A stretch of 26,405 nt of DNA from a virus. The DNA lies in the IMG/VR virus record IMGVR_UViG_3300048625_000054, positions 1 to 26,405 of that record. One strand, written 5' to 3'. The position numbers and the translations under genes are program-made. Below, in pieces: positions 7,704-25,589 of the stretch. Numbering within the stretch: position 1 is the first letter of the stretch; each line of letters opens with the position of its first letter. Under the pieces are notes generated by a model that saw only the letters and a list, made by a program, of their open reading frames with translations, did no database searches and was not told the DNA's origin.

Positions 7704-7725
7704 ACGTAATAATAGCAGTTAATGA

Positions 7726-10029: not shown

Positions 10030-10030
10030 A

Positions 10031-10615: not shown

Positions 10616-10851
10616 TCTTTAACTCCAAAATGTTTCTTCATCTCAGCGGCAGTCCAACTGTCGCGATCATTTAATCCTGTTGCTGCTTCAAATTGTTGAT
10701 TAGCAATATCGGCACATTTATTGACCAGCAACTGAGCGAACTTTTCCGCATCAAAGTGCAGGTAATCAATCTTGTCTACAACTGCGGAACCTTCTGTGGA
10801 ACAAATGATTCCACCTGCCTTCATAATCAGTAGTTTTGTGTGTTCGTTCAT
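10612..10851 (-). CDS. small protein of the HFG-tail family (79 aa)
   Basis: I take the ATG at 10851 (ATGA overlap with queE); a start at 10908 would lie in queE. The protein has MNEHTKLLIMKAGG at the N-terminus, a central helix FDAEKFAQLLVNKCADIANQ and the terminal MKKHFGVKE. It is a paralogue of 13053-13271 and, more distantly, 5961-6191. The repeated family suggests a common binding job performed with different partners, but no function is known. Confidence 0.75.
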   Translation of the reverse strand: MNEHTKLLIMKAGGIICSTEGSAVVDKIDYLHFDAEKFAQLLVNKCADIANQQFEAATGLNDRDSWTAAEMKKHFGVKE

Positions 10852-11720
10852 GCTAGGCTCGCATATAAGTGCATTTGCAGGTTCAACTTGAAACCATGTT
10901 CGATGCAATAGTGTGCAGCGTATTCGTGGTTAGCTTGGTTGGCTTTCAAGTCCAACAAGCCCGGTTCCCAGAAGCTGATAACTTCATCAACTGTGCTGCG
11001 CTCGGCCATTGTGATGTTGCCTTTTTCTGCACGAAGCAATTTGATCTTCTGCGGGAAACTGTTGTACACGTTCATTGGGCTGCAATAGATCTCTTTGCCT
11101 GTTGCTGCTTTCCAGTCATGTGCCCACTGTGGTACGCTGTTGTAAGGACTATCTACATCTGCACTCATAACAAACTTCAAACAGTCTGCACGTTGCAGGA
11201 TAGTTGCCGATGGAGCGAAGTACTTGGTAGGCTTACCGTCTTTTTCTGCGCACTTGGGACTACACACTAGCGTTACACCAGCAGGCACATCAGTAACAGG
11301 AATGCCGTTACTTTCAACCTGAACTGCCTTGAAATGTGCAAGTTGACGGGTCATAAATGCACTAATGTTCTCCTGCAGGAGTGGTTCGCCACCTGTCATT
11401 ACCAACACAACGCCAGGATAGTTGTTTAGTCCATTGTTTGCCCAAGTTGGCGTTGCTTTGCCTTGCTTGTTCCAATAGTCGTTGATGGCTGCATACATTT
11501 TGCCTTCGATTTGATCGTAAGTCATCCAATCGCCATCGTCAAAGAATGTATCGCAAAAGCTACACACTAAGTTACACTTGGCAAGTCGAATAAACAATGC
11601 GGGCATACCTGCATAAGGGCCTTCGCCTTGTAGTGTGAAGAACATGCTGGTCACAAACAAGCTGTCTGCTGGTGCATCCTTAAAATACTTCTTACCAATA
11701 ATTTCATTTGTTCCGAACAT
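10848..11720 (-). CDS. queE: QueE, 7-carboxy-7-deazaguanine synthase (radical SAM)
   Basis: The 290-residue enzyme converts 6-carboxy-5,6,7,8-tetrahydropterin to 7-carboxy-7-deazaguanine (CDG), with a 4Fe-4S cluster and S-adenosylmethionine. It has the typical opening FFTLQGEGPYAGMPALFIRL, then CNLVCSFCD with cluster cysteines C49, C53 and C56 (C-x3-C-x2-C), and TGGEPLLQ (109-116) which binds SAM. The Ser/Asn-rich VESNGIP and LVCSPK segments fit the family. It is somewhat longer than the typical bacterial enzyme (~210-245), with an insertion between residues 80 and 100. It sits after a MazG-like gene and near QueD and the Rieske oxygenase, as part of the 7-deazaguanine module. Confidence 0.9.
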   Translation of the reverse strand: MFGTNEIIGKKYFKDAPADSLFVTSMFFTLQGEGPYAGMPALFIRLAKCNLVCSFCDTFFDDGDWMTYDQIEGKMYAAINDYWNKQGKATPTWANNGLNNYPGVVLVMTGGEPLLQENISAFMTRQLAHFKAVQVESNGIPVTDVPAGVTLVCSPKCAEKDGKPTKYFAPSATILQRADCLKFVMSADVDSPYNSVPQWAHDWKAATGKEIYCSPMNVYNSFPQKIKLLRAEKGNITMAERSTVDEVISFWEPGLLDLKANQANHEYAAHYCIEHGFKLNLQMHLYASLA

Positions 11721-11721
11721 A

Positions 11722-11940
11722 TTATTTCAATAATCCTTGTGCTAGTGTTGTTAGTTCTTCGTTAGTTAACAAGAAATTATATGTGCTAGCGAAGTCAACT
11801 TCACCGTCGCGCATACACTCTTGAATGATCTCTAAACTATTTAGATCTTTTGGACTAGTGCTCTTCCACATACGCACTCGCATACGAAAGGCAGTCTCAT
11901 CTTTAACTGTGAATTCTTTTACTTCGATGCTGGGGTGCAT
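11722..11940 (-). CDS. small hypothetical phage protein (72 aa)
   Basis: The start at 11940 is set by a strong AAGGAAG site 4 bases before the ATG. It overlaps the MazG-like gene by 22 bases. The 72-residue protein begins MHPSIEVKEFTVKD, with strands AFRMRVRMW and a C-terminal part FASTYNFLLTNEELTTLAQGL. It is a compact alpha/beta protein of a type common in T4-like phages. No known function. Confidence 0.75.
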   Translation of the reverse strand: MHPSIEVKEFTVKDETAFRMRVRMWKSTSPKDLNSLEIIQECMRDGEVDFASTYNFLLTNEELTTLAQGLLK

Positions 11941-12212
11941 GTGTCTTCCTTGAAAATGTTTGACCACTGGTGTAGCTTTTCGCGCTTGGCACGGATAGCA
12001 GCTTGTACGCTGGGAGCGTCAATTACTCCGTATTCGGTTAGCAGCTCAATCATGCAAAGCACATCGCCTACTTCGGTTACTAGATTTTCACGCTGTGTCT
12101 TTCCTGACTTGTGCGCATTGTCTAGCCCGAATCGACGAGCTTTGCTAACAGCTTGGATTACCTCTGCACATTCTTCTTGCAGGATATCCATAATTTCTTG
12201 TTGTTTATTCAT
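11919..12212 (-). CDS. MazG-like nucleotide pyrophosphohydrolase (97 aa)
   Basis: The start is the ATG at 12212, overlapping the end of the Rieske gene by 8 bases; the in-frame start at 12245 lies inside it. The MazG/all-alpha NTP-PPase motif is clear: QEECAEVIQAVSKARRFG with E13, E14 and E17, then ENLVTEVGDVLCMIELL with E47 and D50. These acidic residues hold Mg2+ for cleaving NTP or dNTP to monophosphate. Phage MazG proteins are thought to clean up nucleotide pools or alarmones. Here, inside a base-modification cluster, it could remove unmodified or side-product nucleotides, which is inference. Confidence 0.85.
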   Translation of the reverse strand: MNKQQEIMDILQEECAEVIQAVSKARRFGLDNAHKSGKTQRENLVTEVGDVLCMIELLTEYGVIDAPSVQAAIRAKREKLHQWSNIFKEDTCTPASK

Positions 12213-13053
12213 CTTTAATCTTGTTGTCTCTAACCCATTTGCCAAAGTGTACGCAATGGTCTTCTAATCTGTTGCTGGCCTGCATTAACGGAAAGTAACC
12301 GCCTTTTTGCTTTTCAATGGCAGCAACGTCTTCGTGGAACACATCTTCTAGTGTTTCAAACTCTGCCCGCTTGGCAGCAGGTACACTGGGATTATAGTAA
12401 AATTGTGTAACCCAGTCAAATCCAAATTCATCGTTTATGTTTTTAGGTGTAGTGTAGTTAACCGAAACACATCCGGGACTCCATTCTACAAATACAAACG
12501 GATAAATGAATAGCCACCATCCGGTTGAGCATGTTTGCAAAATCCAACCATCCCCTTGACTCATGCCCACGTCATCTAGGTTAGTTTGTTCAGATAGCTG
12601 TGGGTGTATTGCACCCTCACCACGCCTGATATGGAACAGGTCTGCTTGAATTTCCATCATCCACAACCAGCTTCCATTACTAGTGCCGTTGCAGCTATGA
12701 CTATAAACTAACTCAGTTTCGGCGGCTAAGTCATTAACCCAATGATGGGTGGGTTCAACAAAGTCTTTCATTACTAATCCGCTGCGACCAATATCTGCAG
12801 ATCCGCAACTGATCTTACGATCGTTGTTTACTGGAGTACCAGTTGCATCCCATTCAAATCCATGAAAGTGGCACTGAATGTTTTGCACCACTTCGCCGGG
12901 CGTGTGCATTGGGTACATGCGGTGCGGGCAGTATCTATGAAACAAGTTGGCAACAGTGTTGGTGCTTGGGTTAAGAATAACCTCGGGCGTAACAAAGTTG
13001 CCTGCATTCATTGCAGCCTTGTGGGCATAGATCTTTGGAACGTTTTTAAACAT
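12205..13053 (-). CDS. Rieske non-heme iron oxygenase (alpha-subunit-like, 282 aa)
   Basis: Residues 42-64 hold the Rieske 2Fe-2S motif C-x-H-x16-C-x2-H (YCPHRMYPMH then CHFHGFEWDATG): C42, H44, C61 and H64. The second half has the mononuclear-iron pattern: a polar run NGSWLWMMEIQADLFHI with H141, then IHPQL with H150, and EDVAAIEKQKGG (from 241), a typical end of the family that supplies an acidic ligand. So both the electron-transfer and catalytic sites seem to be there. At 282 residues it is shorter than most alpha subunits (~330-450). No reductase or ferredoxin is visible, so host electron donors would be needed. The substrate is unknown. It sits between QueD and MazG/QueE. Start set by TAATG coupling. 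Confidence 0.85.
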   Translation of the reverse strand: MFKNVPKIYAHKAAMNAGNFVTPEVILNPSTNTVANLFHRYCPHRMYPMHTPGEVVQNIQCHFHGFEWDATGTPVNNDRKISCGSADIGRSGLVMKDFVEPTHHWVNDLAAETELVYSHSCNGTSNGSWLWMMEIQADLFHIRRGEGAIHPQLSEQTNLDDVGMSQGDGWILQTCSTGWWLFIYPFVFVEWSPGCVSVNYTTPKNINDEFGFDWVTQFYYNPSVPAAKRAEFETLEDVFHEDVAAIEKQKGGYFPLMQASNRLEDHCVHFGKWVRDNKIKDE

Positions 13054-13271
13054 TAATCTTTAATGCCAAAATGTTCTTTCATGTCGTCAACCAACACATC
13101 TAAAACTGTTTTCATTACAACATCGTTTGGCCATTCCGCTTGTATTTGTGGTGAAGTTATGCACTTGGCACATTCCTGCACAATCAACTCAGCAAACTCT
13201 TCTAGTCGCACATGACTAATGCAATGCTCTACCTGTGCCTTAATGGCAATTTGTTTTAATGTTTCGTTCAT
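13053..13271 (-). CDS. small protein of the HFG-tail family (72 aa)
   Basis: The 72-residue protein shows the family pattern best: MNETLKQIAIKAQ at the start, LEEFAELIVQECAKCI in the middle and MKEHFGIKD at the end. Paralogues lie at 10612-10851 and 5961-6191. The helices are amphipathic and there is no catalytic motif. It is translationally coupled on both sides, ATGA before and TAATG after, so it is made along with the Rieske oxygenase. Confidence 0.8.
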   Translation of the reverse strand: MNETLKQIAIKAQVEHCISHVRLEEFAELIVQECAKCITSPQIQAEWPNDVVMKTVLDVLVDDMKEHFGIKD

Positions 13272-13462
13272 TCTGCTACCTTAATAAGTTTAATATGTAG
13301 TTTGCCATCTTCTAAAATCATATAATGAACAGACTTGGTGCCAGTGGCCAATTGTTGTTCAATGCCCTTGATGGTTGTAACTGCCAACTCTGCTGTACCC
13401 GCTGGTAAAGGATTCTCTGCCCAACGTTGGGCAACATGTTCTACTACTTGATCTGCTTTCAT
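13268..13462 (-). CDS. small hypothetical protein (64 aa)
   Basis: The 64-residue protein starts MKADQVVEHVAQRWAENP. Its first half is a helix with a Pro/Gly break, then ELAVTTIKGIEQQL, and it ends in two strands, VHYMILEDGKLHIKLIKV. It is a small alpha/beta fold of unknown function. ATGA coupling ties it to QueD upstream and to the HFG-family gene downstream. Confidence 0.7.
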   Translation of the reverse strand: MKADQVVEHVAQRWAENPLPAGTAELAVTTIKGIEQQLATGTKSVHYMILEDGKLHIKLIKVAE

Positions 13463-13962
13463 GCAAACAAGTCCTCATTCCATTCACGATGACCTTCTCT
13501 GTAGGCCATGTTGCTTTGTGTTTCACGCACTTCAACGCGGTAGCACCACAAGCGTTCTGCTTCGTGTGGGCCCCACATCTCTGGAATGTAAACACCATTG
13601 ATGTATTTGTAAAGCATATCGCTTAGGGCTTCGCAACCTAGTGCAGGCAACACAACGATCTTGGCCATGTTCTTTTCTTGTAGCAGCTTGAATGTTTCCA
13701 TTTCTGGATCATCCTGTGCAACAATAAGCGTGTGGTCAAATTGATCTTCTAGGGTCTTTTTAAGTTCTTTAAGACCGCCGTAGTCAGCAGCCCAATTACG
13801 CACGTCTAGGTCGTTGGTTCCAAAGTAGAACTTCATACTAAACGCATAGCCATGGATTAGATTGCAGTGGCTGTCTGCACGCCATTGTCTGTAAGCGACA
13901 GGAAAGGCGTTGTGATACTCTTTGGTACTAGTGTACTTGTATTGTACGGTTGGTAATGTCAT
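13459..13962 (-). CDS. queD: QueD, 6-carboxy-tetrahydropterin synthase (PTPS family)
   Basis: The 167-residue T-fold enzyme turns 7,8-dihydroneopterin triphosphate, the FolE product, into 6-carboxy-tetrahydropterin. Family landmarks are in order: ADSHCNLIHGYAF with H32, catalytic C33 and H37; DVRNWAADYGGL (a PTPS hallmark); DQFDHTLI with D76/H77; GCEALSDMLYKY; and VEVRETQSNMAYRE with the end Glu E147. The usual second His of HGH is Tyr (HGY), so the zinc site is not canonical. I believe this variant is shared by phage QueD proteins. It follows a 61-base gap after the PP-loop trio with a hairpin overlapping the ribosome binding site (13973-13994). Confidence 0.85.
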   Translation of the reverse strand: MTLPTVQYKYTSTKEYHNAFPVAYRQWRADSHCNLIHGYAFSMKFYFGTNDLDVRNWAADYGGLKELKKTLEDQFDHTLIVAQDDPEMETFKLLQEKNMAKIVVLPALGCEALSDMLYKYINGVYIPEMWGPHEAERLWCYRVEVRETQSNMAYREGHREWNEDLFA

Positions 13963-14023
13963 GCTTTATTCTCCTATGTTAAGTTTAGCATAGGCAGCAG
14001 AATTTGTATACCGGGATGATGCT
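13963..14023 (-). promoter_or_regulatory. gap before queD with a hairpin over the ribosome binding site
   Basis: In the 61-base gap, CCTATG (13994-13989 on the minus strand) pairs with CATAGG (13978-13973), and the loop is 10 bases. The right arm overlaps the AGGAG ribosome binding site (13975-13971). Folding would hide part of the site. I see no convincing promoter here and no match to the preQ1 riboswitch pattern. Confidence 0.35.
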
Positions 14024-14872
14024 CTAAAGGCCGGTTAATTGATTGAGTAGTGTATCTCTATTTATAAAGAACGCTTGATGCTCTGAGTTTTTACCTAATC
14101 GGTCCAAGCTCTTTTTGATAATAAAATCTAACTCTGTAGAATGGTAGAAATTAAAAAATGAAGATTGAATCTTGGTCCTACACAAAATACCATACAACTG
14201 AGATTTTGCCATCTGTGTATTCATAGTAGTATCTAGTTCTCGAACCAGGGCAGCAAACAATTCAGGGGTATACGATAAAAATGCACCAGGATGTTGGCTT
14301 CCATGTACTACATCTAGAAAATAATTGTGATCAGTTATTTCTACTAGATCACCAACTGGTTCATTGAATGTAGTTGAAACATGGACCGGGTCTCCGTTAC
14401 CAGTTAATACACTAGCGTTAGGCAATAAGTCTGCAATAACACTTACCACCAATGCCCTGTCAAACGGCAAATGATATTTGTGCGCTTTCTCTATAAGCAT
14501 TTTCACTAATGTGACATGCTTTTCTTTCCCTGCAAAATCCAGCACCAACGGGGTTAGTTTGTTATCGTGACAGAATTTGTAAGCGTACCAGTTCTCTGCT
14601 TTGGCGTAATCGGCGGCCAGTATCACAGGCGTGAATGGTATGCTATTTCTAATTAACACCTTGGCTACAAATTCACTATCGAGGCCGCCGCTTAAACATA
14701 AATGTAAATCAGTGTACTGCTTGGCAATCAACTGTGCAGTATAATCGGCGGCATCGTCAAAGGACATGACTTTAGCAGTAGAATTAAACTCTACTGCAAA
14801 CGGATCGGTTATATTACTAACACTGTACTTTTCTAAATTAACTGACAGCCAGCCATTGTGTCCAATATTCAT
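14024..14872 (-). CDS. PP-loop ATPase, third in transcription order of a tandem trio (282 aa)
   Basis: The 282-residue protein has the PP-loop signature SGGLDSEFVA (61-70) that binds the pyrophosphate of ATP, as in QueC, asparagine synthetase B and tRNA-modifying thiolases. The enzyme class adenylates a carboxyl or carbonyl group for attack by ammonia, sulfur or another nucleophile. The fold continues with FTPVILAADYAKAENWYAYKF and ends with an HPGAFLSYTPELFAALV segment shared by all three paralogues. No QueC-type C-terminal Cys cluster and no glutaminase domain are present. It is ATGA-coupled to the paralogue upstream. Nearby QueD/QueE suggest a 7-deazaguanine amidation or nitrile step. Confidence 0.85.
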   Translation of the reverse strand: MNIGHNGWLSVNLEKYSVSNITDPFAVEFNSTAKVMSFDDAADYTAQLIAKQYTDLHLCLSGGLDSEFVAKVLIRNSIPFTPVILAADYAKAENWYAYKFCHDNKLTPLVLDFAGKEKHVTLVKMLIEKAHKYHLPFDRALVVSVIADLLPNASVLTGNGDPVHVSTTFNEPVGDLVEITDHNYFLDVVHGSQHPGAFLSYTPELFAALVRELDTTMNTQMAKSQLYGILCRTKIQSSFFNFYHSTELDFIIKKSLDRLGKNSEHQAFFINRDTLLNQLTGL

Positions 14873-15714
14873 CGTAATAGCAATCCAATTAATTCATTCT
14901 TATTCCACATAGCCGGCGGCAATGGAGAATACAATTCAGTATGCACAGCTGAAAATATTTTTTGGGTCACTCTTGAATCCATTGGTTGAGTGGGCACCAA
15001 TTCCTTAACTCTAAATGGAACTCCGTAGAGTCTCGATTTTGATGAACTGTGATTTGTACTAGTATCGCTTTCAGTTGCCATTGCTAACATCAATTCCGGG
15101 GTATACAATAAGAAGTTGCATAAAGGTAACGATGGATCTATTAGGGTAGGATAAAAGACACTGGCATATATGTCGTACACATCACCGGCTGCTTCATCAA
15201 ACCTAGCGGTATGTCTAACTAACGGTGACTCACCGGCTACTAATGTGCCACCTTTATTGCGAACATAATGGCACAGATAATCGATTACCGACACTAGGTT
15301 ACATTCTTGTTTTACGCCTTTACAAGAGTTTATAAAATGCGGGATTAGTCTAGGGTCGTTGGTTTTAAATTCAATGAATATTGGCGCTATTTTTTTACGA
15401 TAACACCATTCTAGCGCAAACATATAATCGGTGCTGCCTTCTACAGTAGCAACAATCGGAGTGAATTTAATGTTGTTTCTATAAAATACTTCGGCTACAA
15501 ACTCACTGTCGAGCCCGCCACTCAATCCAATATAGATATCCGTGTGATTTTTTGCAAATAATTTAGCTGCCTCGTCGGCCGCCTGTTGAAACGGCACAGT
15601 TCTAATATCTGTGTGATTGAAGTTTAGTGTAAATGTAGACTGCAACGGCTTTTTCTGTATATCGGCGATTGCAGTATACCAGTTGTTGTAGCCTTCAGTT
15701 GTTGTTAGTATCAT
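14869..15714 (-). CDS. PP-loop ATPase, second of a tandem trio (281 aa)
   Basis: This paralogue has SGGLDSEFVA (65-74) and the same layout as its two neighbours: an N-terminal NNWYTA motif, QQAADEAAKLFAKNH, the PP-loop, a variable middle with a Cys-containing stretch SCKGVKQECN, and LYTPELMLAMATESDTS near the end. Identity to the other two seems modest, so the duplication is old and the proteins have probably taken different tasks or act as a heteromer. No zinc ribbon is seen. It overlaps the first paralogue by 20 bases and the third by 4, so all three are made from one message. Confidence 0.85.
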   Translation of the reverse strand: MILTTTEGYNNWYTAIADIQKKPLQSTFTLNFNHTDIRTVPFQQAADEAAKLFAKNHTDIYIGLSGGLDSEFVAEVFYRNNIKFTPIVATVEGSTDYMFALEWCYRKKIAPIFIEFKTNDPRLIPHFINSCKGVKQECNLVSVIDYLCHYVRNKGGTLVAGESPLVRHTARFDEAAGDVYDIYASVFYPTLIDPSLPLCNFLLYTPELMLAMATESDTSTNHSSSKSRLYGVPFRVKELVPTQPMDSRVTQKIFSAVHTELYSPLPPAMWNKNELIGLLLR

Positions 15715-16603
15715 TGAGTAACAGTTTCAAAAATTCTTCTTTATCTGGTAGCGGGGTAAAATCTCTATTACTCCATTGCAATGGCACGTGTGCTTGAGTC
15801 CACTTAAAAATCTCATTATACTCTGGTATTGTTTTGGCAATGTAGTTTTGCACAAATCCTTCTCCGCCATTTAACTTGGGTCGAGGCAATAGGTTAAACA
15901 TTCTCCATTTATTCTCTTCCATTGGCTGAGATGTGTCCCAGTCAGCGATTGCGCTTGCTAACATTTCCGGAGACCAGAAAAAGAACGCCCACGGGTGCTT
16001 ACCGGGGTTCATTAACTCAATGTAGAATTCAGCCTCGCCAATCATAAACCCACGGAATGAATCTTTAAATTCTTTACTGGCCTTTTCGGGCTGCATTTTC
16101 GGATCCGGCCAGTACATTGGGTACGCGCCGTGAACCATGTACCCACCACGGCTTTCTATTTCTTTTGCAACTAAATCAACGGTGGCCCCAAACCAGCAGC
16201 TTCCTTTTACTTTACCTATTACACGCTTTCCGTGGTCTAGTAGATCAAATGGATCAACTTCGAACTTTATAAGCTCAACTTCGTTTTCCTTGCACCACTT
16301 ATCAGCATACCATTCTCCTATTTTAAAGTAACTCTTGCAAGTCATCATGATAGCTTTAAATGGGACACCTGCTGCCTTAAAACTTTTAGCAACGTACTCG
16401 CTATCGCATCCGCCACTCATTGCAACGTATATATTTGGATATAGTGAATGGATTTCCCTTGCTGTTTGCTGTGCAATTTCGTCGAGTGGATATACTCTAT
16501 CTGCACGTTCGTTAAACTGTACTGCAAAATCTCCGCTGCGGGCACGACAATTTCCAACTCCGTTACCAAAGTCGAACGTCATCCAGTTATTTCTACAATA
16601 CAT
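15695..16603 (-). CDS. PP-loop ATPase, first of a tandem trio (302 aa)
   Basis: The signature here is SGGCDSEYVA (63-72), with Cys in place of Leu. The start (RNNWMTFDFGNG) and the WSPEMLASAIADWDTS end match the other two. The middle differs: Trp-rich KIGEWYADKWCKENEV and a long segment with WPDPKMQPEKA. The change at the loop, together with the longer middle, suggests a different substrate. It follows two small genes at 16593-17224 with an 11-base overlap. The product is unknown; amide or nitrile synthesis on CDG is the leading idea from context. Confidence 0.85.
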   Translation of the reverse strand: MYCRNNWMTFDFGNGVGNCRARSGDFAVQFNERADRVYPLDEIAQQTAREIHSLYPNIYVAMSGGCDSEYVAKSFKAAGVPFKAIMMTCKSYFKIGEWYADKWCKENEVELIKFEVDPFDLLDHGKRVIGKVKGSCWFGATVDLVAKEIESRGGYMVHGAYPMYWPDPKMQPEKASKEFKDSFRGFMIGEAEFYIELMNPGKHPWAFFFWSPEMLASAIADWDTSQPMEENKWRMFNLLPRPKLNGGEGFVQNYIAKTIPEYNEIFKWTQAHVPLQWSNRDFTPLPDKEEFLKLLLNDTNNN

Positions 16604-17436: not shown

Positions 17437-17445
17437 GTTGTTTCC

Positions 17446-18147
17446 TTAGCGTGGTGCAAACTCTTGTTGCAGTTTGATGTTGTCGAAGAACTCTTTCTTT
17501 ACGCTTGCGTCTTCCTTGAAAGCGCCGCGTAGTACTGTGGTCTGGGTGAGACTAGAATGAGCCATGATACCACGATTTTCACAGCATCCGTGGGTAGCTT
17601 GGATATAAACAGCAACATCCTTGGATCCAGTTGCAAGTTCAATCTCACGAGCGATGTCCATGCAGAGTTCCTCTTGTAGAGTTCCTCGTCTTGCGCACCA
17701 CTGAGCAATGCGCGTATATTTCGAAAGTCCAATGAGTTTCTGTCCAGCAAGAATGCCAATGTAAGCGATGCCTGTAACAGGCTGGTGATGATGGCTGCAC
17801 ATACTCTTAAGCTCACTGCGCACAACCAACATTCCGTCATATGCGCCTTCACTGTCATTTGGAAACGCTGTTGCGCTAGGACTTTCATCATAGCGACCGG
17901 CCATGATTTCATTAAAGTACATTTTTGCAAGACGCCTTGCTGTGCCTTTTGAGTTCGGATCATTTTCTCTGTCAATCAATAGTGTGTCAAGTACTTGTTC
18001 AAATGCTTCTGCTGCTTCGTTAATTAACGATTCTTTTTCTTCTTCGCCAACATACTCGCTGATGTTGTCGCCTGCCCAAAAGCGTTTGTTGTCTGCTCGC
18101 ATTTTGTCGCGAATAACTTGTGATAAGTTTTTACTTGTATCTGTCAT
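17446..18147 (-). CDS. folE: FolE, GTP cyclohydrolase I
   Basis: The 233-residue enzyme catalyses the first step of pterin and 7-deazaguanine synthesis, GTP to 7,8-dihydroneopterin triphosphate. The family signature is intact: SMCSHHHQPVTG with zinc ligands C117 and H120, IGLSKYTRIAQWCARRGTLQ for the active site, and THGCCENRGI with C188. It is probably a homodecamer in the cytosol. The N-terminal 60 residues are a charged helix region usual for FolE. Phages with DpdA often carry it to boost precursor supply. It lies one base downstream of the DegT-like gene. Confidence 0.92.
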   Translation of the reverse strand: MTDTSKNLSQVIRDKMRADNKRFWAGDNISEYVGEEEKESLINEAAEAFEQVLDTLLIDRENDPNSKGTARRLAKMYFNEIMAGRYDESPSATAFPNDSEGAYDGMLVVRSELKSMCSHHHQPVTGIAYIGILAGQKLIGLSKYTRIAQWCARRGTLQEELCMDIAREIELATGSKDVAVYIQATHGCCENRGIMAHSSLTQTTVLRGAFKEDASVKKEFFDNIKLQQEFAPR

Positions 18148-18148
18148 T

Positions 18149-18754
18149 TTAGTCCTTGATAGTGATTGTTCTTAAGTCTGGGTACTCAACCGATACTGGC
18201 TTTGGTTTATCTGCCTTAATGCCTTGGAGTAATGCAAGTCCTTGCACTGCTTCTTCTGGTGTGGGCTTATAGTGATAACCAACGCTAAATTCTTTCTGAG
18301 ATTCCCATGGTTTAATATTTAGGTCGCGTCCATCATAACGTCTACGAATTATTCTGTCGTATGCTTCCTTGTCGTCTAGTAGTATAGCACCGCCACGGCC
18401 GATGTGTAAAGGCTTTGTATGTCCAAAACTTAAACACTGCATCATTCCCGGGCGGTACATGTTTTCTTCTAGTCGTCTTGCGCTATCCCAAATACGTGTA
18501 CCTTCAAATTTATACTCCCCAATCCATTGTTGTCTGTGTGGCAACGTGTCCGGAAAGTAACTGTAGTTGATTCCCAGCTTGTGCATGGTCATCGGAATGC
18601 TTAGATAGGTATAGGGAGTAAATGAGCACTCGGAAATAGCATCGTGGCGCAAGCATAACTCAATGGCATGTGTGCAGCAATCTGTCATGATTGCATATGG
18701 TGCGCCAGTAAATTCTGCTAACGCAATTTCAAATTTCTTAATTTTATCAAACAC
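18149..18754 (-). CDS. miniature DegT/DnrJ/StrS-like PLP protein (201 aa), GTG start
   Basis: I pick the GTG at 18754, overlapping galE by 8 bases; another GTG at 18802 would add 16 residues without family match. The protein has the DegT order: FEIALAEFTGAPYAIMTDCC, YTYLSIPMTMHKLG, WDSARRLEE (D90, the PLP-nitrogen aspartate), and LSFGHTKPLHIGRGGAIL with K114 as the PLP lysine. Members usually have about 370-400 residues, but this one stops after the first part of the large domain. Either it is a reduced sugar aminotransferase or it has another binding job. With GalE upstream, a nucleotide-sugar link is likely. Confidence 0.75.
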   Translation of the reverse strand: MFDKIKKFEIALAEFTGAPYAIMTDCCTHAIELCLRHDAISECSFTPYTYLSIPMTMHKLGINYSYFPDTLPHRQQWIGEYKFEGTRIWDSARRLEENMYRPGMMQCLSFGHTKPLHIGRGGAILLDDKEAYDRIIRRRYDGRDLNIKPWESQKEFSVGYHYKPTPEEAVQGLALLQGIKADKPKPVSVEYPDLRTITIKD

Positions 18755-19730
18755 GATTGTTATACCAGTTATATGCTGTGTCGATGATGTTTTTAATATC
18801 ACTGTTGACGGGGTTCCACCCTAGTACGGTACGTGCAGTAGAAATATCTGCTACTAATATATCAGGGTCGCCAGGACGAGCTGGTCCGTACTTGACTGTT
18901 GTTAGCCCGTATGTGAAGTACACACAGTCAACGATTTCTTTATTGCTAGTTCCGCGCCCAGCGCCTAAGTTGAACACATGGTGTCCTGCAATGGTATCTG
19001 GACCATAGTGAATAGCAAAGAAATCTGCTGCCTTAGTGTGTGCTAGTGCAATGTCCCAAACGTGTACGTAGTCACGAACACAAGTGCCGTCTAGGGTATT
19101 AAAGTCTTCGCCATTGATGGTTAGCAAACGTTTGTTTAGGCTTGCTTCGATAGTACGTGCAACTAGATGTGTTGCATTAGGTTCCTGCCCTAAGTCACCA
19201 GTTTCAATTGCACCTGCTGCATTAAAGTAGCGGAAGCAAATGGTGTTAATACCGTAAGCACTACCGTAATCCTCTAGCAACTGCTCAACAATCATCTTAG
19301 TTGAGCCGTATGGGCTAATCGGACTCACTGGTGCTTGTTCTCGGATTGGCGACTCTTTGGGAATACCATAAACGCTTGCGCTGCTGCTAAACATGATAGT
19401 GGGCTTTTTAGGCATGTCCTTAATAACGTCCATCATTTTGATAGTCTTGGTAACGTTGTTATGGTAATACTCCGCCGGGTCAGTCATGCTTGGGCCAACT
19501 AAGCTAGTGCCTGCACAATGCACAATGATATCGGGTGCATAATTGATAATCGTTGACAGCACTGCATCACTTGCAAAGTCGTCAATTAAGTATCCATCAA
19601 TGTCTTTAACGGTGTGCTCACGAAACACAGAATCCACAATGTATACTGCGAATCCCGCTTGTTTAAACGCTCGCGAGACATGGCTACCTATGTAGCCACA
19701 TCCGCCCGTTACAATAACGGTCTTTGCCAT
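18747..19730 (-). CDS. galE: GalE-type UDP-glucose/UDP-GlcNAc 4-epimerase
   Basis: The 327-residue enzyme belongs to the extended short-chain dehydrogenases. It shows the NAD-binding TGGCGYIGSH (8-17), SSSASVYGIP (115-124), the catalytic PYGSTK with Y141 and K145, and RYFNAAGA. It interconverts UDP-glucose and UDP-galactose (or the N-acetyl forms). Length and motifs are complete. It feeds the glycosyltransferase encoded at 20300-21478, or the host envelope pathway. The following DegT-like gene overlaps its end. Confidence 0.92.
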   Translation of the reverse strand: MAKTVIVTGGCGYIGSHVSRAFKQAGFAVYIVDSVFREHTVKDIDGYLIDDFASDAVLSTIINYAPDIIVHCAGTSLVGPSMTDPAEYYHNNVTKTIKMMDVIKDMPKKPTIMFSSSASVYGIPKESPIREQAPVSPISPYGSTKMIVEQLLEDYGSAYGINTICFRYFNAAGAIETGDLGQEPNATHLVARTIEASLNKRLLTINGEDFNTLDGTCVRDYVHVWDIALAHTKAADFFAIHYGPDTIAGHHVFNLGAGRGTSNKEIVDCVYFTYGLTTVKYGPARPGDPDILVADISTARTVLGWNPVNSDIKNIIDTAYNWYNNRV

Positions 19731-19913: not shown

Positions 19914-19936
19914 TTTATTTTTCCTTTGTTAAATGA

Positions 19937-20131
19937 TTAGTTGTCAACATCCATTGCAAGTGCTTCTTCAATCACTGCAAAGAGTTCTTCTTTTGTGCTG
20001 CAAAGTACCTTACAGGTCTTCCAGTCACTTTCTTTGTCACGACCGCCAACTTCGATCATGAAGCCATTGTCGTAACGATTAACTGTAAATGATTCATTTA
20101 CTTTGTCTAGTTTGTTTAGTTTCTTAGCCAT
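19937..20131 (-). CDS. small hypothetical protein (64 aa)
   Basis: The 64-residue protein begins MAKKLNKLDKVNESFTVNRY, followed by GFMIEVGGRDKESDW, CKVLCSTKEELFAVIEEALA and an acidic end. The pattern strand, strand, helix (EELFAVIEEALAM) suggests a small alpha/beta fold. Function unknown; the type is common in phages. TAATG coupling to the gene at 20131-20316 sets the start. Confidence 0.75.
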   Translation of the reverse strand: MAKKLNKLDKVNESFTVNRYDNGFMIEVGGRDKESDWKTCKVLCSTKEELFAVIEEALAMDVDN

Positions 20132-20316
20132 TATACGCCCCTTATGTTCTTTAGCATTACGTATTGATCAAACAAGTTGACCAACTCTGGATCACCGCCC
20201 AAGTACCATTCGCTGGCAGCTTTTAGGCTTAGTGCCTTTAGTTGATCTTCATTGAGACTGGGGTATCGCTCCCCAGCCAATGTTAACCAAATGTCTTGTT
20301 TAGTACTTAGACTCAT
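20131..20316 (-). CDS. small hypothetical protein (61 aa)
   Basis: I use the ATG at 20316, giving a 17-base overlap with the glycosyltransferase; the in-frame start at 20436 lies far inside it. The 61-residue protein is mostly helical: MSLSTKQDIWLTLAGERYPS, LNEDQLKALSLKAASEWYLG, then LVNLFDQYVMLKNI. There is no ribosome binding site of note. Unknown function. Confidence 0.65.
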   Translation of the reverse strand: MSLSTKQDIWLTLAGERYPSLNEDQLKALSLKAASEWYLGGDPELVNLFDQYVMLKNIRGV

Positions 20317-21478
20317 GTGTATGTTTGCGGTAGTCAGTTGACATACGCAACCACTGTTCGCCCTTGCCTTCAATAATGTCAACAATGCGATCAGCAGTGC
20401 CACTGGTCCATGTACAGATCTTGCCCATGTTTTCACTTGGCTTCTGCAACAGTTTTTCCAACTTGTCTAGTGCGTCTTCTATGCTCCATGGAACGTACAT
20501 ACGTGTATGATCATTTGCAAAAGTCTCAGGGAAAGATCTATAAGCAGGATAAAGTACATTACATCCCAAAGCGTCAGCTTCGGAGACAGTGTTGGAGACC
20601 CAATCTTGTAAAGCACAATTAAAAACAACGCGGCTATCATTAACGATGGAGTAATAATCATTCTTTTCTAAATCCTCGTAAATGGTTAACACACCTGCAG
20701 CCTGCATTTCTCTAGTGCGATTCATGTAGCTGTCATTGTTGCTCTTTAGTTTTGCGCCCGAGCACACAGCAAACTCTACACCCGATCCAGGATGACGGCG
20801 GTGCCATGCTTCGATTACATCCATGTAGAAGTCCGGTTGCTTCTCTTGGTCCCAACGTGCAGAGAACACCACGCGAGGCGTGCGCTCATTCCACGGAGTA
20901 ATCTTATTACCAACACGCTCTTGCACTTCCTCAGTGTTAAACACCAATCCTGAAATATTGTAGATTGGAGCTTTCCAACCTGCAATCTTCATGTGCATTA
21001 CCATTTCTTCGTTAGTGGCCAACACACCATCCACAAAGCTGTCCACCATGCGTTCATAGTGACCCATAAATTCACCCATTCCCCAAACATGTACGAAGTC
21101 ATCAGGGTCAATAGACTGAGCGAGACAACGTACAAAGATTCTTGGGCGCGACGCCTCCGGGATCTGTTTAATGATATATGGTAGGCTTTCAATTCCAGGC
21201 TGGAACATGTCTTCGAAATATACGACATCATCTTTATTTAACGCCCCTTGTTGCATCAATCGAACCAAATTCATCATCTGGCTCATACCAAAGTAGCTGC
21301 GACCATGTGCGTCCAGTACTTGTCCTGTAACAATCTTTTGACTGTTATCCAGCGTTAGACCTGGAACGTATACTGCTTCGACGCCACGGCGATCAAAAAC
21401 ACGCTTGTTCCATTCTGTTAGTTGCAGAGTATAGCGAGCTTTGTAGCTCTCTAACCCCATGTAATATAGCTTGCCCAT
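20300..21478 (-). CDS. GT-B-fold glycosyltransferase (GT4-like, 392 aa)
   Basis: The 392-residue protein has the two-lobe layout of GT-B enzymes. The N-terminal half has Tyr/Trp-rich sequence (VWGMGEFMGHYERMV), then the linker TPRVVFSARWDQEKQPDFYM (200-219), typical of the strand and helix at the start of the nucleotide-sugar lobe. VSNTVSEADALGCNVLYP (294-311) looks like the E-x7-E-type sugar-nucleotide site. It could transfer sugars to modified DNA bases or surface glycans. GalE lies three genes away. The exact donor and acceptor are unknown. Confidence 0.8.
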   Translation of the reverse strand: MGKLYYMGLESYKARYTLQLTEWNKRVFDRRGVEAVYVPGLTLDNSQKIVTGQVLDAHGRSYFGMSQMMNLVRLMQQGALNKDDVVYFEDMFQPGIESLPYIIKQIPEASRPRIFVRCLAQSIDPDDFVHVWGMGEFMGHYERMVDSFVDGVLATNEEMVMHMKIAGWKAPIYNISGLVFNTEEVQERVGNKITPWNERTPRVVFSARWDQEKQPDFYMDVIEAWHRRHPGSGVEFAVCSGAKLKSNNDSYMNRTREMQAAGVLTIYEDLEKNDYYSIVNDSRVVFNCALQDWVSNTVSEADALGCNVLYPAYRSFPETFANDHTRMYVPWSIEDALDKLEKLLQKPSENMGKICTWTSGTADRIVDIIEGKGEQWLRMSTDYRKHTHESKY

Positions 21479-21876
21479 TAAATGGGACCTCCGTTAATTT
21501 TTGTTAAGTAATCGCGCATGGTGATATTGCTCATATTCTGACCCCATACATCTCTTCCATACGTGTCAGATGATCGCCAGTTATACGCACGACTAGCCGC
21601 ATCATGTTGAGTCAGTGCATCAGTGATGTGTCTCACTTGGTCTTCTAGACTGCGAACACGACTGTGCATGGTATTTAGGTCACGTTCCATTGCACGTAGT
21701 GGACCGATATCACCTTTAGAGTCAGCGTCTTCGGGATTAGTAAGCGCCACAATCATTAGCAGACTGCGAAGGGCGTTTACTACACGCTCATCTTTACTAG
21801 TTAGGGCAGTATCAAATAGTTCAAAGACCCGTTGTAGGTCTAGTTCTGCTTGGCCCATGTCGTTTGTGGCGCTCAT
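21478..21876 (-). CDS. hypothetical coiled-coil protein (132 aa)
   Basis: The 132-residue protein starts MSATNDMGQAELDLQRVF. It has LFDTALTSKDERVVNALRSL and LLMIVALTNPEDADSKGD. After that, residues 65-92 (MERDLNTMHSRVRSLEDQVR) have a heptad pattern for a coiled coil. The end is rich in Trp, Tyr and Asn. It probably makes a dimer or trimer. Function is unknown. TAATG coupling to the glycosyltransferase gene downstream means they are made together. Confidence 0.75.
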   Translation of the reverse strand: MSATNDMGQAELDLQRVFELFDTALTSKDERVVNALRSLLMIVALTNPEDADSKGDIGPLRAMERDLNTMHSRVRSLEDQVRHITDALTQHDAASRAYNWRSSDTYGRDVWGQNMSNITMRDYLTKINGGPI

Positions 21877-21878
21877 AA

Positions 21879-22142
21879 TCAGCGGTACTTCCAGTTGCTG
21901 TTTTTGTCACGAGGTTTGAACTCACGACGCTCTTTTGGATATGGACTCCAATTGTCCTTGGGGAACTTGCCAGCCTTAACTCGCTGCATTTCGCCCCACG
22001 GTGTTTTCTCGTTGTAGAGATGGCTTTCGTCATAGACGTAGCCCTGCTTCTTACAGAACGCCAAGTACTCTTCGAGGTCATTGAATAGACGCGAAACTTC
22101 GGGTTTCATCTTCAAGTACTTTTGCAGGTGTTCGTTTGCCAT
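21879..22142 (-). CDS. small basic hypothetical protein (87 aa)
   Basis: The 87-residue protein starts MANEHLQKYLKMKPEVSRLF with a helix LEEYLAFCKKQGYVYDES. The rest is basic and lacks hydrophobic core (KAGKFPKDNWSPYPKERREF, KPRDKNSNWKYR). It may bind nucleic acid or be partly disordered. A good AAGGAA site lies ahead of the ATG. It belongs to a group common in T4-like phages with no known function. Confidence 0.75.
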   Translation of the reverse strand: MANEHLQKYLKMKPEVSRLFNDLEEYLAFCKKQGYVYDESHLYNEKTPWGEMQRVKAGKFPKDNWSPYPKERREFKPRDKNSNWKYR

Positions 22143-22153
22143 TTTATATTTCC

Positions 22154-22603
22154 TTAGATACTGATCAGTTGTGGGCGGTGAGATTCATATTTAATTAAAG
22201 CGCCGTTCTCACCATCTTCGGCAACTTCAATCCAGACACTGCGGTCAGGATACTTTGTGTTGATTTGTGTGTACAAATCATCTGCAATCATTTCGCAACT
22301 CTTAAAGTTGAGTTCCAACGTACCACCTGCGTACAGGTTTTCAAGCCAACGCTTAAATTGGATGAATTCAATATCGCGGTCATTGTGGAACACGTCAATC
22401 CATACACGGAAGTGAAAGATATGACGATGTGGTAACCCAAGGAACGAAACGTCATATTCGTCGCCTGTTGCCAATGCTGGGTCAGTTGCTGCTGCTGGGT
22501 ATTTGTGAATGCCTTCTTTCTTGAAGGTTACCCAGATTTGTCTATCTGCACGTTGCATGATACGCTCGCGCTTGTCTGCTAGTGCTTGGTCTCGTTGGCT
22601 CAT
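22154..22603 (-). CDS. QueD-like T-fold protein (149 aa)
   Basis: The 149-residue protein has the fold order of the PTPS/QueD group: VTFKKEGIHKYPAA, then FLGLPHRHIFHFRVWIDVFH with an H-R-H (59-61), EFIQFKRWLENL, KSCEMIADDLYTQI (SCE at 102-104) and VWIEVAEDGENGALIKYE. The SCE-x-x-A and E-x-x-x-x-x-A segments are typical of QueD. The zinc and catalytic pattern is unlike the second QueD here (13459-13962). It may have a related reaction, a partner role or a new substrate. It sits between the DpdA neighbours and the glycosyltransferase block, so a link to base modification is likely. Confidence 0.7.
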   Translation of the reverse strand: MSQRDQALADKRERIMQRADRQIWVTFKKEGIHKYPAAATDPALATGDEYDVSFLGLPHRHIFHFRVWIDVFHNDRDIEFIQFKRWLENLYAGGTLELNFKSCEMIADDLYTQINTKYPDRSVWIEVAEDGENGALIKYESHRPQLISI

Positions 22604-22785
22604 CTAATAATTCCTTGTGAGTCGGTTGTTGTATTAAAGTCAATGACTTCGTTTGCTACTTCTGAAAAGTGCGTAGTACATGCAGTTTGCATTTCTTCCC
22701 ACATTGCTTCAAAATCGCTGTCTGAGATATCAGGGCGCATTTCTGCAATAACAAGACGTAACTGTTCTTTACTGAGCTTGTTCAT
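22600..22785 (-). CDS. small hypothetical protein (61 aa)
   Basis: I use the ATG at 22785 (ATGA overlap); an in-frame start at 22815 lies in the previous gene. The protein has a helix-rich sequence: MNKLSKEQLRLVIAEMRPDI, SDSDFEAMWEEMQTACTTHF and EVANEVIDFNTT. It is a small acidic helical protein without a visible motif. ATGA overlaps link it on both sides to the base-modification genes. Confidence 0.7.
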   Translation of the reverse strand: MNKLSKEQLRLVIAEMRPDISDSDFEAMWEEMQTACTTHFSEVANEVIDFNTTTDSQGIIR

Positions 22786-23285
22786 AAAGTTTCGTCTTTC
22801 GTATAGCTGGACCAATCAGTAAATACTTTTCGATCCATAAGGTTGTGAACACTGTGGCACCAAACACCAGGGTTAGTTGCTGCAAAGTCTTTGTCGTCTA
22901 GCTTGATTGTAGCATTATAACCTAGCTGTTGTAAATACGGCAGTTTCACCGAAATCATCGGAATGAAGTTGTGATGCTCGCATAGAGAACTTTCCAACAG
23001 GCCTTCTACACATTTAGAGTCAATGTCCAGGGTACAAGTGTATCCTTTTTCTAAGAAAGGGCCAATCATCTTTTCCCAATCGTTCCAAACTGGATCGTTT
23101 ATAGCAGGATTAGGAAAGCTCATGTTGGCACCAAAGTAGATATGGTCCGCACCATGTAGGTTCAATGCAATATCTGCCAATGGCTGTACACCCACAACAA
23201 ACAGTGTTTGCTTTCCATATGCAGGAGTGTGTTCTACTTCCTTACCTTGGAAGAATCTAACTTCCTCATGACCTTCTCTAATCAT
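22782..23285 (-). CDS. conserved DpdA-neighbour protein of unknown function (167 aa)
   Basis: The 167-residue protein is ATGA-coupled behind dpdA. Its ordered core runs KQTLFVVGVQPLADIALNLH, HIYFGANMSFPNP, LEKGYTCTLDID, FIPMISVKLPYLQQL and ATIKLDDKDFAATNPGVW. The repeated hydrophobic strands followed by helices suggest an alpha/beta fold of the Rossmann or TIM-barrel type. A clear nucleotide-binding loop is not visible. I recall similar proteins next to TGT-like genes in other phages but can give no function. A partner that delivers base or DNA to DpdA is possible. Confidence 0.75.
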   Translation of the reverse strand: MIREGHEEVRFFQGKEVEHTPAYGKQTLFVVGVQPLADIALNLHGADHIYFGANMSFPNPAINDPVWNDWEKMIGPFLEKGYTCTLDIDSKCVEGLLESSLCEHHNFIPMISVKLPYLQQLGYNATIKLDDKDFAATNPGVWCHSVHNLMDRKVFTDWSSYTKDETL

Positions 23286-24976
23286 TGTGTGTCCTCTAAG
23301 TTGTCTAATGCTGCCTCGTCAAACTCGATTTCATCATCGCTGCTTGAATCTTCTACGTCAAATAGCTTGTCAAACATTGGGCGAGCACTTACTGCCTTCT
23401 TGCCTTTGAATCCACGAGTTCCAATGATCTCGGTCCAGTAGCCATTTGGGCCACCATACATTTCGATAATCTCTTCTGCTGTAGCACGATCGGGCGCTGC
23501 AAAAATGGCTTCAACAATGTCTTCAAAGAAAGGTGCGAGAGGCTTTTCGGATCGCATCATTGCGGGATGTTCTCCTGCATCAAATCGTCTATTGGCTTCT
23601 TGTACCGCAGTCAAGTGCATCCAAACGTTATGGCCCATGAGCAATGCGTAACTAAAACTATCCCACGAAGTCTTACCTTCCTTGCCAACCTTATTTAGAT
23701 CGCCGGGCTTATAGATACAAATATCCTTCATTTTGAACAAGTCACTTAGTGGACTATCTTCCCAGTTATCGTAGATACCATCTGCAACTACACCTGTACT
23801 CCACTTGCGTGTGTCAGTAGCATACTTCTTGTCGTCTGCACTAGGTGCCATGCGATAAGACCATTTACCATCTTGTGGGAATACGTTTTCAAAGTACACC
23901 TGTCCGTTAGCTGTTGCTAAGAATGGACTTGCACAGTCAAAGCTAATAGTAAAAGCTGGATTAACATACTTGCGAACTGCACGTTGAATAACAGTCAGCA
24001 ACACGGCCCACTCTAGTTTACTTGTGCCTAAGAAGTGCATCCAATCATGTTTGCCCTCTTGTAATAAGTTGTCGTAACGTAGTGCCACTAGACGTTTCAA
24101 GATCAAGTGTACATCACACATGTTCTGACCTCCCATAGCCCAGCCGTCGAAGTGTGTATCGGGATACTTAACTGGATCACAATACTCTTTCATTACTTGG
24201 TACCAATCTTCGGCACTGCTGTGATTGTCACCCTGCAACACGTTTAAGAACTTAGTACCGCCGTTGTTCTTACCTTTACGCTGCGCCATAAAGTATTCGT
24301 TGTTATACTTTGTGGCTGCTACTGCTTCGTCAAGGGTTTTGATACCGCAGGCATCGCTGGCTTTCTTGTCATGAATAACCCAAGTTGGAATATCCAGTCC
24401 CATACCATAGTTACTAATACTGTCTAACCAAGTTAAGATAGCACCACGTTTCTTTTGTGCTGCGTCGATTAAGTTTTGATAGTTTTTAGCATGATCGATT
24501 GTTACAGTCTTTGGACCTTTTTTACCAATGACAGGATTACCGTCCTTGTCTAACACAGGTTTAATTTCTACGCCCAATGCCACCATTGCAGCCATTTTGT
24601 CTTTGACTTCTTGGCTGTTAGGATCACGCCACTCGCCTTCCCATAAGCCTTTAGCAATCTGGAATCCACCAGAGTCGCCAAGTAGGATAGTGTTTGGGTC
24701 ACGTTTACGAACCATGTCTTCGCTTGCATCTTCTTTAGTGAGATCTAAGTTGGCGTGACCTCCTGAATAGAGGCTCCACTTGTACGGGAATAGGCCCTTT
24801 TGATCATTAAGCCAGTTCATTTGCTCCATGTCAGTTAGTCCTTGCGGGAAACGTGCCGGATCAACATAGTCATTGTTAACACGCTGTTTGCCCACAAACG
24901 TGCCGTAGAAGCCGCTGATAGCTGGCAAGAATACTGCGTAATCTTTTTGTTTACTTGTTAAATTATCTTGGCTCAT
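23282..24976 (-). CDS. dpdA: DpdA, TGT-like 7-deazaguanine DNA transglycosylase (564 aa)
   Basis: The 564-residue enzyme exchanges guanine in DNA for a 7-deazaguanine base, using the tRNA-guanine transglycosylase (TGT) mechanism. Seen motifs: LLGDSGGFQIAKG (98-110), with D101 as the general base, FLNVLQGDN (243-251), DGWAMGGQNMCD (277-288), HFLGTSKLEW (314-323), and SFDCASPFLATANGQ (345-359), in which D347 matches the nucleophile of TGT (FDCVLPTR). The CxCxxC-H zinc site of bacterial TGT is not visible. The C-terminal 35 residues are strongly acidic. It is larger than bacterial TGT (~375 residues). It overlaps the sulfotransferase gene by 14 bases and is coupled to its conserved neighbour. 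Confidence 0.88.
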   Translation of the reverse strand: MSQDNLTSKQKDYAVFLPAISGFYGTFVGKQRVNNDYVDPARFPQGLTDMEQMNWLNDQKGLFPYKWSLYSGGHANLDLTKEDASEDMVRKRDPNTILLGDSGGFQIAKGLWEGEWRDPNSQEVKDKMAAMVALGVEIKPVLDKDGNPVIGKKGPKTVTIDHAKNYQNLIDAAQKKRGAILTWLDSISNYGMGLDIPTWVIHDKKASDACGIKTLDEAVAATKYNNEYFMAQRKGKNNGGTKFLNVLQGDNHSSAEDWYQVMKEYCDPVKYPDTHFDGWAMGGQNMCDVHLILKRLVALRYDNLLQEGKHDWMHFLGTSKLEWAVLLTVIQRAVRKYVNPAFTISFDCASPFLATANGQVYFENVFPQDGKWSYRMAPSADDKKYATDTRKWSTGVVADGIYDNWEDSPLSDLFKMKDICIYKPGDLNKVGKEGKTSWDSFSYALLMGHNVWMHLTAVQEANRRFDAGEHPAMMRSEKPLAPFFEDIVEAIFAAPDRATAEEIIEMYGGPNGYWTEIIGTRGFKGKKAVSARPMFDKLFDVEDSSSDDEIEFDEAALDNLEDTQ

Positions 24977-25589
24977 TATAATAGTTTGCTGTTTTAATTA
25001 GTTCGTAGTCAGCAGCATATCGTGCAATAATCTTAGCACGTAGTACAGGATCCTGCTCTACTCTGAATCTCATATGCTTGGCAATCATTTTAGTATCGTA
25101 ATTGTCTTCGCCTGCGTTAGCTGCTATAGGATTATTTAGACCTAGCTTACAATCTAAAAAACTTTCTAAGTTCATTCCTAACTCGTAATTGAGTTTGAAG
25201 AATGTAATCTTGTGGTCGCCTAGTTGCTCTACGTATTTTACTTGTTCAGTAGTATGGTCGTCAAATACAATTTGATCAAAGATTATGCGCTGTGTGAGAT
25301 CATTATAGTCATCTCTAAAATGGTCGCTGCCATAACCTTCCCCGAGCAACCAACTGGCCGCATAAGTTGCAAAGCCACTGAGCCAACGATCAACTGGATC
25401 ACGTAGAACCACTATACATTCCTTAATGTCAGGACTGTACACGTCATTGTGGCGCCAATCGTTAGCAACCAGCAGGTTAGTCATATATGTGCTAGCGTTC
25501 TTGGGAATGCCTAGATAGAAAATCCCAGTAGGGGATAATAACCCACTACCAGGACGGTATCCTCTAGGTATCAGATGACCTAAAGACAT
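24963..25589 (-). CDS. PAPS-dependent sulfotransferase-like protein (208 aa)
   Basis: The 208-residue soluble protein has GIPKNASTYM (27-36), matching the 5'-phosphosulfate loop of sulfotransferases, and VVLRDPVDRWLSGF (60-73), matching the 3'-phosphate site. This type uses PAPS to put sulfate on sugars or other hydroxyl groups. The rest is helical, rich in Asp and Asn. It directly precedes DpdA and overlaps it by 14 bases, an unusual link. The acceptor is unknown: a modified base, a glycan or a host molecule are all possible. TAATG coupling to the clamp gene sets the start. Confidence 0.8.
   Translation of the reverse strand: MSLGHLIPRGYRPGSGLLSPTGIFYLGIPKNASTYMTNLLVANDWRHNDVYSPDIKECIVVLRDPVDRWLSGFATYAASWLLGEGYGSDHFRDDYNDLTQRIIFDQIVFDDHTTEQVKYVEQLGDHKITFFKLNYELGMNLESFLDCKLGLNNPIAANAGEDNYDTKMIAKHMRFRVEQDPVLRAKIIARYAADYELIKTANYYNEPR

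Follow-up and report, generated by a model that had tools for sequence, protein, structure and literature searches.

The sequence analyzed here (the window, 26,405 nucleotides in its entirety) is a 26.4 kb piece of the viral IMG/VR record IMGVR_UViG_3300048625_000054, and nearly all of its genes lie on the minus strand. It carries genes predicted to make a 7-deazaguanine and to insert it into DNA, together with a GT-B glycosyltransferase, a QueD-like T-fold protein, a Rieske oxygenase, three PP-loop ATPases, and several further enzymes (Table 1). Families were assigned to the open reading frames (ORFs) of the window with Pfam, NCBIfam and PHROG, and motifs were read in the translations. All of the genes named in a preliminary description of this DNA were found on the minus strand with intact motifs, either where it had placed them or close by; its QueD-like T-fold protein was taken to be ORF 22154–22603. 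The window comes from the genome of a jumbo phage, its nearest relatives being contigs of 354, 320, and 240 kb (sister contigs G001–G003). It also has genes for TAILX (25589–26323), DpdA, the glycosyltransferase, the T-fold protein, and an exonuclease in common, and in a similar order, with the 287 kb genome of Pseudomonas phage PA5oct. A PADLOC search returned no match.

Table 1. Features of the window, with the predicted pathway genes first and other neighbors after them.
Feature	Position	Strand	Evidence
FolE, GTP cyclohydrolase I	17446–18147	-	PF01227 E 7e-40; CSHH, HGCCENRG motifs
QueD, 6-carboxytetrahydropterin synthase	13459–13962	-	PF01242 E 5.6e-15; PHROG 2389
QueE, radical-SAM 7-carboxy-7-deazaguanine synthase	10848–11720	-	TIGR03963 E 4e-19; TIGR04322; PHROG 2076 E 5e-46; CNLVCSFC
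DpdA-type DNA guanine transglycosylase, 564 aa	23282–24976	-	DSGGFQ at 101, GWAMGG at 278, SFDC at 345; DpdA2 profile match
GT-B glycosyltransferase	20300–21478	-	PF13524 E 2.2e-5, slightly below cut-off; PF00534
QueD-like T-fold protein, predicted core partner	22154–22603	-	PHROG 17812; hhalign to QueD family
Rieske non-haem iron oxygenase, accessory	12205–13053	-	PF00355 E 2.7e-7; PF00848
PP-loop ATPase 1, accessory	15695–16603	-	SGGCDS
PP-loop ATPase 2, accessory	14869–15714	-	SGGLDS
PP-loop ATPase 3, accessory, without glutaminase domain	14024–14872	-	SGGLDS
GalE-type UDP-sugar 4-epimerase	18747–19730	-	TIGR01179 above cut-off
Miniature DegT/AHBA-synthase-like pyridoxal phosphate (PLP) protein	18149–18802	-	PF01041 E 2.4e-13; WDSAR, SFGHTK
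MazG-type pyrophosphohydrolase	11919–12245	-	PF03819; EECAE, EVGD
Sulfotransferase-like protein, sporadic	24963–25589	-	PF03567, exactly at cut-off
C22, small conserved protein beside DpdA	22782–23285	-	conservation across loci

By family profile and motif, the set that produces 7-carboxy-7-deazaguanine (CDG), namely FolE, QueD and QueE, is complete in the window. QueC is missing: scanning the PP-loop proteins of the window with Pfam and NCBIfam gave no QueC match, the search of the three sister contigs, which may be incomplete, gave none either, and QueC was found in 0 of the 80 viral glycosyltransferase loci described below. Neither QueC nor Gat-QueC, needed for a modification of the dPreQ0 or dG+ type, was found among the PP-loop proteins of the window or in G001–G003. 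The preliminary description was silent on QueC, and this is the most informative absence at the locus: with FolE, QueD and QueE but no QueC, synthesis of the base is predicted to end at CDG.

The DpdA ORF had no match in Pfam, NCBIfam or PHROG. Its profile nevertheless aligned with that of the DpdA2 family, which was defined in Vibrio phage nt-1 (Hutinet et al., 2019; PMC6884629), with an hhalign probability of 94.6 (E 7e-8), DSGGFQ standing opposite DSGGLQ and ISFDC opposite ISYDS. The protein is 28–32% identical to proteins of PA5oct, Vibrio phage 2.275.O and Phosso, and its key residues vary little or not at all across these homologs. A bacterial homolog (locus L304, 9469–11079) weakly matched models of tRNA-guanine transglycosylase (TGT). 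Judged by these motifs and alignments, the window appears to encode a TGT-related DpdA with its catalytic motifs present.

The glycosyltransferase of the window has the R-x4-K and E-x7-E motifs of retaining, GT4-like GT-B enzymes, as R208-x4-K213 and D292-x7-E300, with Asp at the first Glu position; PA5oct and relatives have E-x7-E. Among the best-scoring 80 of 416 viral glycosyltransferase loci in IMG/VR, which belong mainly to a single phage group with a common backbone and represent few independent events, que, dpd or T-fold genes lay within 8 kb in every case (DpdA in 75, the T-fold gene in 77, FolE in 66). DpdA, the T-fold gene or FolE likewise adjoined the glycosyltransferase gene in 18/18 loci from GTDB genomes; part of these look viral and have the same backbone genes, and part are on bacterial contigs, from Sulfitobacter (1.0 Mb), Shimia (262 kb) and Magnetospirillum (up to 1.4 Mb). 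Among isolated phages, PA5oct, BUCT-ZZ01, ACP17, Phosso and X1 have closer homologs, all of them beside que genes, and the T-fold gene accompanies the glycosyltransferase gene in all five isolates as well as in the clade of the window. The DpdA of ACP17, BUCT-ZZ01 and X1 is DpdA2 rather than the window type, a label given because tblastn with the ACP17 protein matches nt-1; the association with the glycosyltransferase therefore arose with two DpdA families. Moreover, the enzyme of the cyanophage BUCT-ZZ01 is 64% identical to that of the window and yet is encoded beside DpdA2, an arrangement that suggests transfer. Linkage of the glycosyltransferase, T-fold and DpdA genes thus recurs in unrelated phages and in bacteria, and points to the glycosyltransferase as a core pathway partner of DpdA.

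We also considered glycosylation of a hydroxymethylpyrimidine. No thymidylate-synthase-family gene was found in ACP17, BUCT-ZZ01 or X1, so a hydroxymethylpyrimidine from that route is an unlikely substrate for the glycosyltransferase there; the family is found in PA5oct, Phosso and the sister contig of the window, where such a substrate is possible.

Several arrangements of the glycosyltransferase gene were noted in passing. In Sulfitobacter, Shimia and Azospirillum (loci L297, L301 and L299, ~7340–10600), a queuosine-precursor-transporter-like gene, the glycosyltransferase gene and a DpdA gene with DSGGFQ are contiguous; FolE, QueD and QueE had no profile match in these three loci. In Magnetospirillum the glycosyltransferase gene comes first, then the T-fold gene, then DpdA, and their frames overlap; across Magnetospirillum and Verrucomicrobia (L304, 6321–11693; L305; L307) the three frames abut or overlap, a CoiA-nuclease-like gene standing upstream of the set in L304. 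A distant relative in Xanthomonas phage PhiXhv-12 adjoins GlmS-like and deacetylase genes (L168, 6735–9969), possibly of another sugar pathway.

The profile of the T-fold protein aligned with the QueD family with an hhalign probability of 56 (E 1e-4), and all controls scored below 2; against PDB sequences it gave chance matches alone. Our initial reading of this protein as QueF was abandoned after a negative profile comparison. The gene lies near FolE or QueE in Cellulophaga phage phiST, Aeromonas phage Ahp1, Rhizobium phage RHph_I1_18, Vibrio phage D479, Bakedbeans and Chryseobacterium phage MA9V-3. In total, it stands beside FolE, QueE or DpdA in 11 isolated phages, all of them without a full-length QueC (D479 has a partial QueC-like match), and the four QueC-positive phages nt-1, Vibrio 2.275.O, pf16 and Ps15 all lack both the T-fold and the glycosyltransferase genes. 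Across these 15 phage records the Fisher P for T-fold versus QueC was 7e-4, or 0.004 with D479 counted as QueC-positive, values that are descriptive only because the sample was hand-picked. In the Menderavirus Ps15 the gene immediately upstream of DpdA2 is QueC; in its relative ACP17, the glycosyltransferase and T-fold genes follow immediately downstream of DpdA2. By its gene neighborhoods, the T-fold protein is a predicted core member of the pathway. We noted by eye that three T-fold phages without the glycosyltransferase have small transglycosylase-resembling proteins with LDNSGFE-like motifs near the T-fold gene (L170, 9807–10586; L175, 9749–10543; L171, 9429–10301); the profile similarity of these proteins to the DpdA of the window is weak.

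Given the core linkage of the glycosyltransferase and T-fold genes and the absence of QueC, a QueC-independent and probably glycosylated 7-deazaguanine is predicted. We lean towards the view that the phage swaps guanines in its DNA for such a base via DpdA, and that the base is probably glycosylated by the linked GT-B enzyme. More tentatively, DpdA, the T-fold protein and the glycosyltransferase might form a three-gene system, present in phages and some bacterial chromosomes, that places glycosylated 7-deazaguanine in DNA while bypassing QueC, with the FolE-QueD slot of the window adding swappable tailoring enzymes. FolE, QueD and QueE would convert GTP to CDG; the T-fold protein, in place of QueC, would probably act on CDG or a CDG product; DpdA would exchange DNA guanine for the resulting base; and the glycosyltransferase would add a sugar, probably on the base after insertion. 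GalE might supply the sugar donor in the clade of the window, and the Rieske/PP-loop cassette would be an optional extra with only a putative link to the base. The FolE, QueD, QueE and DpdA steps follow established pathway knowledge; we infer the T-fold and glycosyltransferase steps from linkage and family, and with them the substrates, the step order, the placement of the sugar on the base and its identity.

Five points weigh against a glycosylated base. The main difficulty is chemical, in that decarboxylation of CDG by the T-fold protein would remove the C7 handle for a sugar. Cui and colleagues reportedly described, in 2023, dCDG and dDG phages in which DpdL is a CDG decarboxylase. The T-fold family may be DpdL, in which case the base would be plain 7-deazaguanine with no C7 group to bear a sugar. 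The difficulty would disappear if the sugar were attached as a glycosyl ester of CDG, or if the T-fold product bore a hydroxyl or an amine. Second, the glycosyltransferase is absent from the T-fold phages with small DpdA-like genes. Third, the distant glycosyltransferase of PhiXhv-12 (24% identity) has no que gene nearby. Fourth, the 80 viral loci, being mostly of one group, are not independent. Lastly, the AlphaFold model of DpdA was poor (predicted local distance difference test score, pLDDT, 62) and had no significant PDB match, which leaves its fold unconfirmed; this model and that of C22 were set aside.

Compared with DpdA2-dependent modification in nt-1 (PMC6884629), the window has FolE, QueD, QueE and a DpdA2-related DpdA in common, but nt-1 has QueC and lacks the T-fold and glycosyltransferase genes, the opposite of the window type. 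The QueC-less pathway is shared with the dCDG/dDG phages, and in Cellulophaga phage phiST a T-fold gene of this family adjoins FolE, but there is no glycosyltransferase. By description rather than by sequence, the predicted system resembles QTMAN and QTGAL, which make mannosyl- and galactosyl-queuosine of animal tRNA (PMC12518689), in that a sugar is put onto a 7-deazaguanine already inside nucleic acid; theirs, however, is RNA and bears the sugar on a cyclopentene ring, whereas the predicted pathway acts on DNA and lacks such a ring.

The best-surviving alternative, which we regard as rather unlikely, is that the base is simple and already known (dCDG, or dDG should the T-fold protein be DpdL), and that the glycosyltransferase serves another base, the virion or a cell-surface target. 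CDG is just what FolE, QueD, QueE and DpdA without QueC predict, and the same idea has a precedent in phage Bipper, in which QueC is the sole missing gene (Hutinet et al., 2019; PMC6884629). Some T-fold phages do without the glycosyltransferase, and GalE, the miniature DegT-like protein and the sulfotransferase are typical of surface-glycan loci. Against this alternative, the glycosyltransferase gene is linked with DpdA on bacterial chromosomes and with two DpdA families in phages, often overlapping or adjacent to it.

Next, we weighed the proposal of the preliminary description that the whole set acts on one base. In the form considered here, PP-loop ligases would amidate the carboxylate of CDG and the Rieske enzyme would oxidise the base, which would also be glycosylated and sulfated. 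We think this improbable. Protein 12205–13053 reads by motif as a Rieske ring-hydroxylating oxygenase, with a CxH-Cx2H [2Fe-2S] motif and a 2-His-1-carboxylate site (D-x2-H-x8-H) whose inter-His spacing is above the usual. All three PP-loop ORFs have the SGGxDS motif; their family profile is nearest to NH3-dependent NAD synthetases (E 5e-8), and none is recognisable as QueC by sequence. In favor of a shared pathway, in the window and its sisters alike the Rieske and PP-loop genes fall between FolE and QueE. CmoY, a PP-loop ligase resembling asparagine synthetase, is known to amidate a carboxylate borne on DNA in the CmoA/CmoX/CmoY carboxymethylcytosine hypermodification of Synechococcus phage S-B43 (PMC12783734), which likewise combines a carboxylate handle on DNA with a nearby PP-loop ligase. 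By analogy, amidation by the PP-loop enzymes is plausible for a carboxylate-bearing base. The base differs, however, and the PP-loop family aligned with CmoY (hhalign E 1.7e-4) over the PP-loop/ATP-binding core only, full-length homology of the CmoY type was not found, and the Asn_synthase model had no match in the sister contig.

The distribution of these genes argues against the whole-set proposal. Most same-clade loci lack a Rieske or PP-loop gene in the FolE-QueD slot, and some hold different genes there; the content of the slot is variable and the cassette therefore optional. Except for a single weak Rieske match, neither gene occurred in the 80 viral glycosyltransferase loci, and tblastn of the Rieske protein and PP-loop ATPases 1 and 2 against 50,697 phage records gave no match. 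At the stringency used, relatives of PP-loop ATPase 1 in IMG/VR were confined to two sister contigs. Most Rieske/PP-loop pairs are located elsewhere: the Rieske gene has a PP-loop gene as its neighbor in 35 of 40 loci, but only ~6 of these have que genes. In three other long contigs with the pair (345, 250 and 171 kb), DpdA and the T-fold gene are tens to hundreds of kb away, and neither was found in two more (208 and 149 kb), which may be fragments. These distributions suggest that the Rieske and PP-loop genes form a separate module, mostly outside que loci, with an unproven role in the pathway of the window.

Inspecting relatives by eye, we saw in the FolE-QueD slot an amidinotransferase-like gene (one locus) or PLP-aminotransferase-like genes beside a PP-loop gene (L032, 9892–10962; L021, 12542–13447; L067, 17263–18186). 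Other Rieske/PP-loop pairs lie inside large phage clusters (G017, 60600–84000, with L125 and L126; G011, 18000–44000, with L129–L131), among neighbors that, again by eye, resemble desaturase, TauD-like, radical-SAM and TctC-like proteins and possibly belong to small-molecule pathways. Lastly, that the locus is degenerate, or that its que genes serve host tRNA queuosine rather than phage DNA, is very improbable: DpdA is distantly related to TGT, but the active-site motifs are conserved across many relatives and DpdA groups with the DNA-acting DpdA2.

The GalE, miniature DegT-like, sulfotransferase-like and MazG genes, which the preliminary description had counted as possible parts of the pathway, do not clearly follow it. 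GalE and the miniature DegT-like gene come after the glycosyltransferase gene in the clade of the window and are conserved in that clade only. The DegT-like protein has an invariant Lys130 in 19 homologs, putatively the PLP lysine; it occurred in 2/80 glycosyltransferase loci (a PA5oct-like group), and its relatives in S-SCSM2R and Flavobacterium immuto phages have glycan genes around them. Small proteins of this kind (~200 residues) lie beside glycosyltransferase genes in several unrelated phages (L167, 10010–10597; L169, 6989–7633; and the window). The sulfotransferase-like gene was matched in 30 loci of a first set, approximately one-third of the DpdA loci. MazG is rare among related loci and probably serves general nucleotide metabolism. 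C22 was matched in 79/95 loci of the first set and in 67/80 glycosyltransferase loci, and its homolog in ACP17 lies directly upstream of DpdA2. The top PDB match of its model (pLDDT 72.5) was QueE, non-significant; matches to designed 'Cake' proteins reflected a short repeat in synthetic repeat proteins and were disregarded.

Collectively, the idea that the locus extends beyond FolE, QueD, QueE and DpdA stands for the glycosyltransferase and the T-fold protein, which co-occur with DpdA, FolE and QueE in unrelated phages and bacteria, but not for the other enzymes, which had been grouped by position. The locus exceeds the basic set because of these two genes and the absence of QueC, not through the sum of nearby enzymes. 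Wide occurrence of the added genes in phages lacking dpdA had been put forward as evidence that would count against the idea; closer glycosyltransferase homologs and the T-fold gene show no such spread, and for the Rieske and PP-loop genes the same holds only weakly.

We know of no report of glycosylated 7-deazaguanine in DNA; open-access papers searched for DpdA together with a glycosyltransferase contained none. Sugar-bearing bases, such as those of T4, strongly protect against restriction and CRISPR nucleases. The module is present in phages that have been isolated (PA5oct, Paride, ACP17 and BUCT-ZZ01), so that the prediction is testable on available DNA, and its copies in bacteria suggest that host chromosomes, too, have a DNA marking system. 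If the prediction is true, these phages would have a sugar-coated 7-deazaguanine DNA base, made by a glycosyltransferase and a T-fold protein that travel with the pathway, and most of the other added enzymes would be optional passengers.

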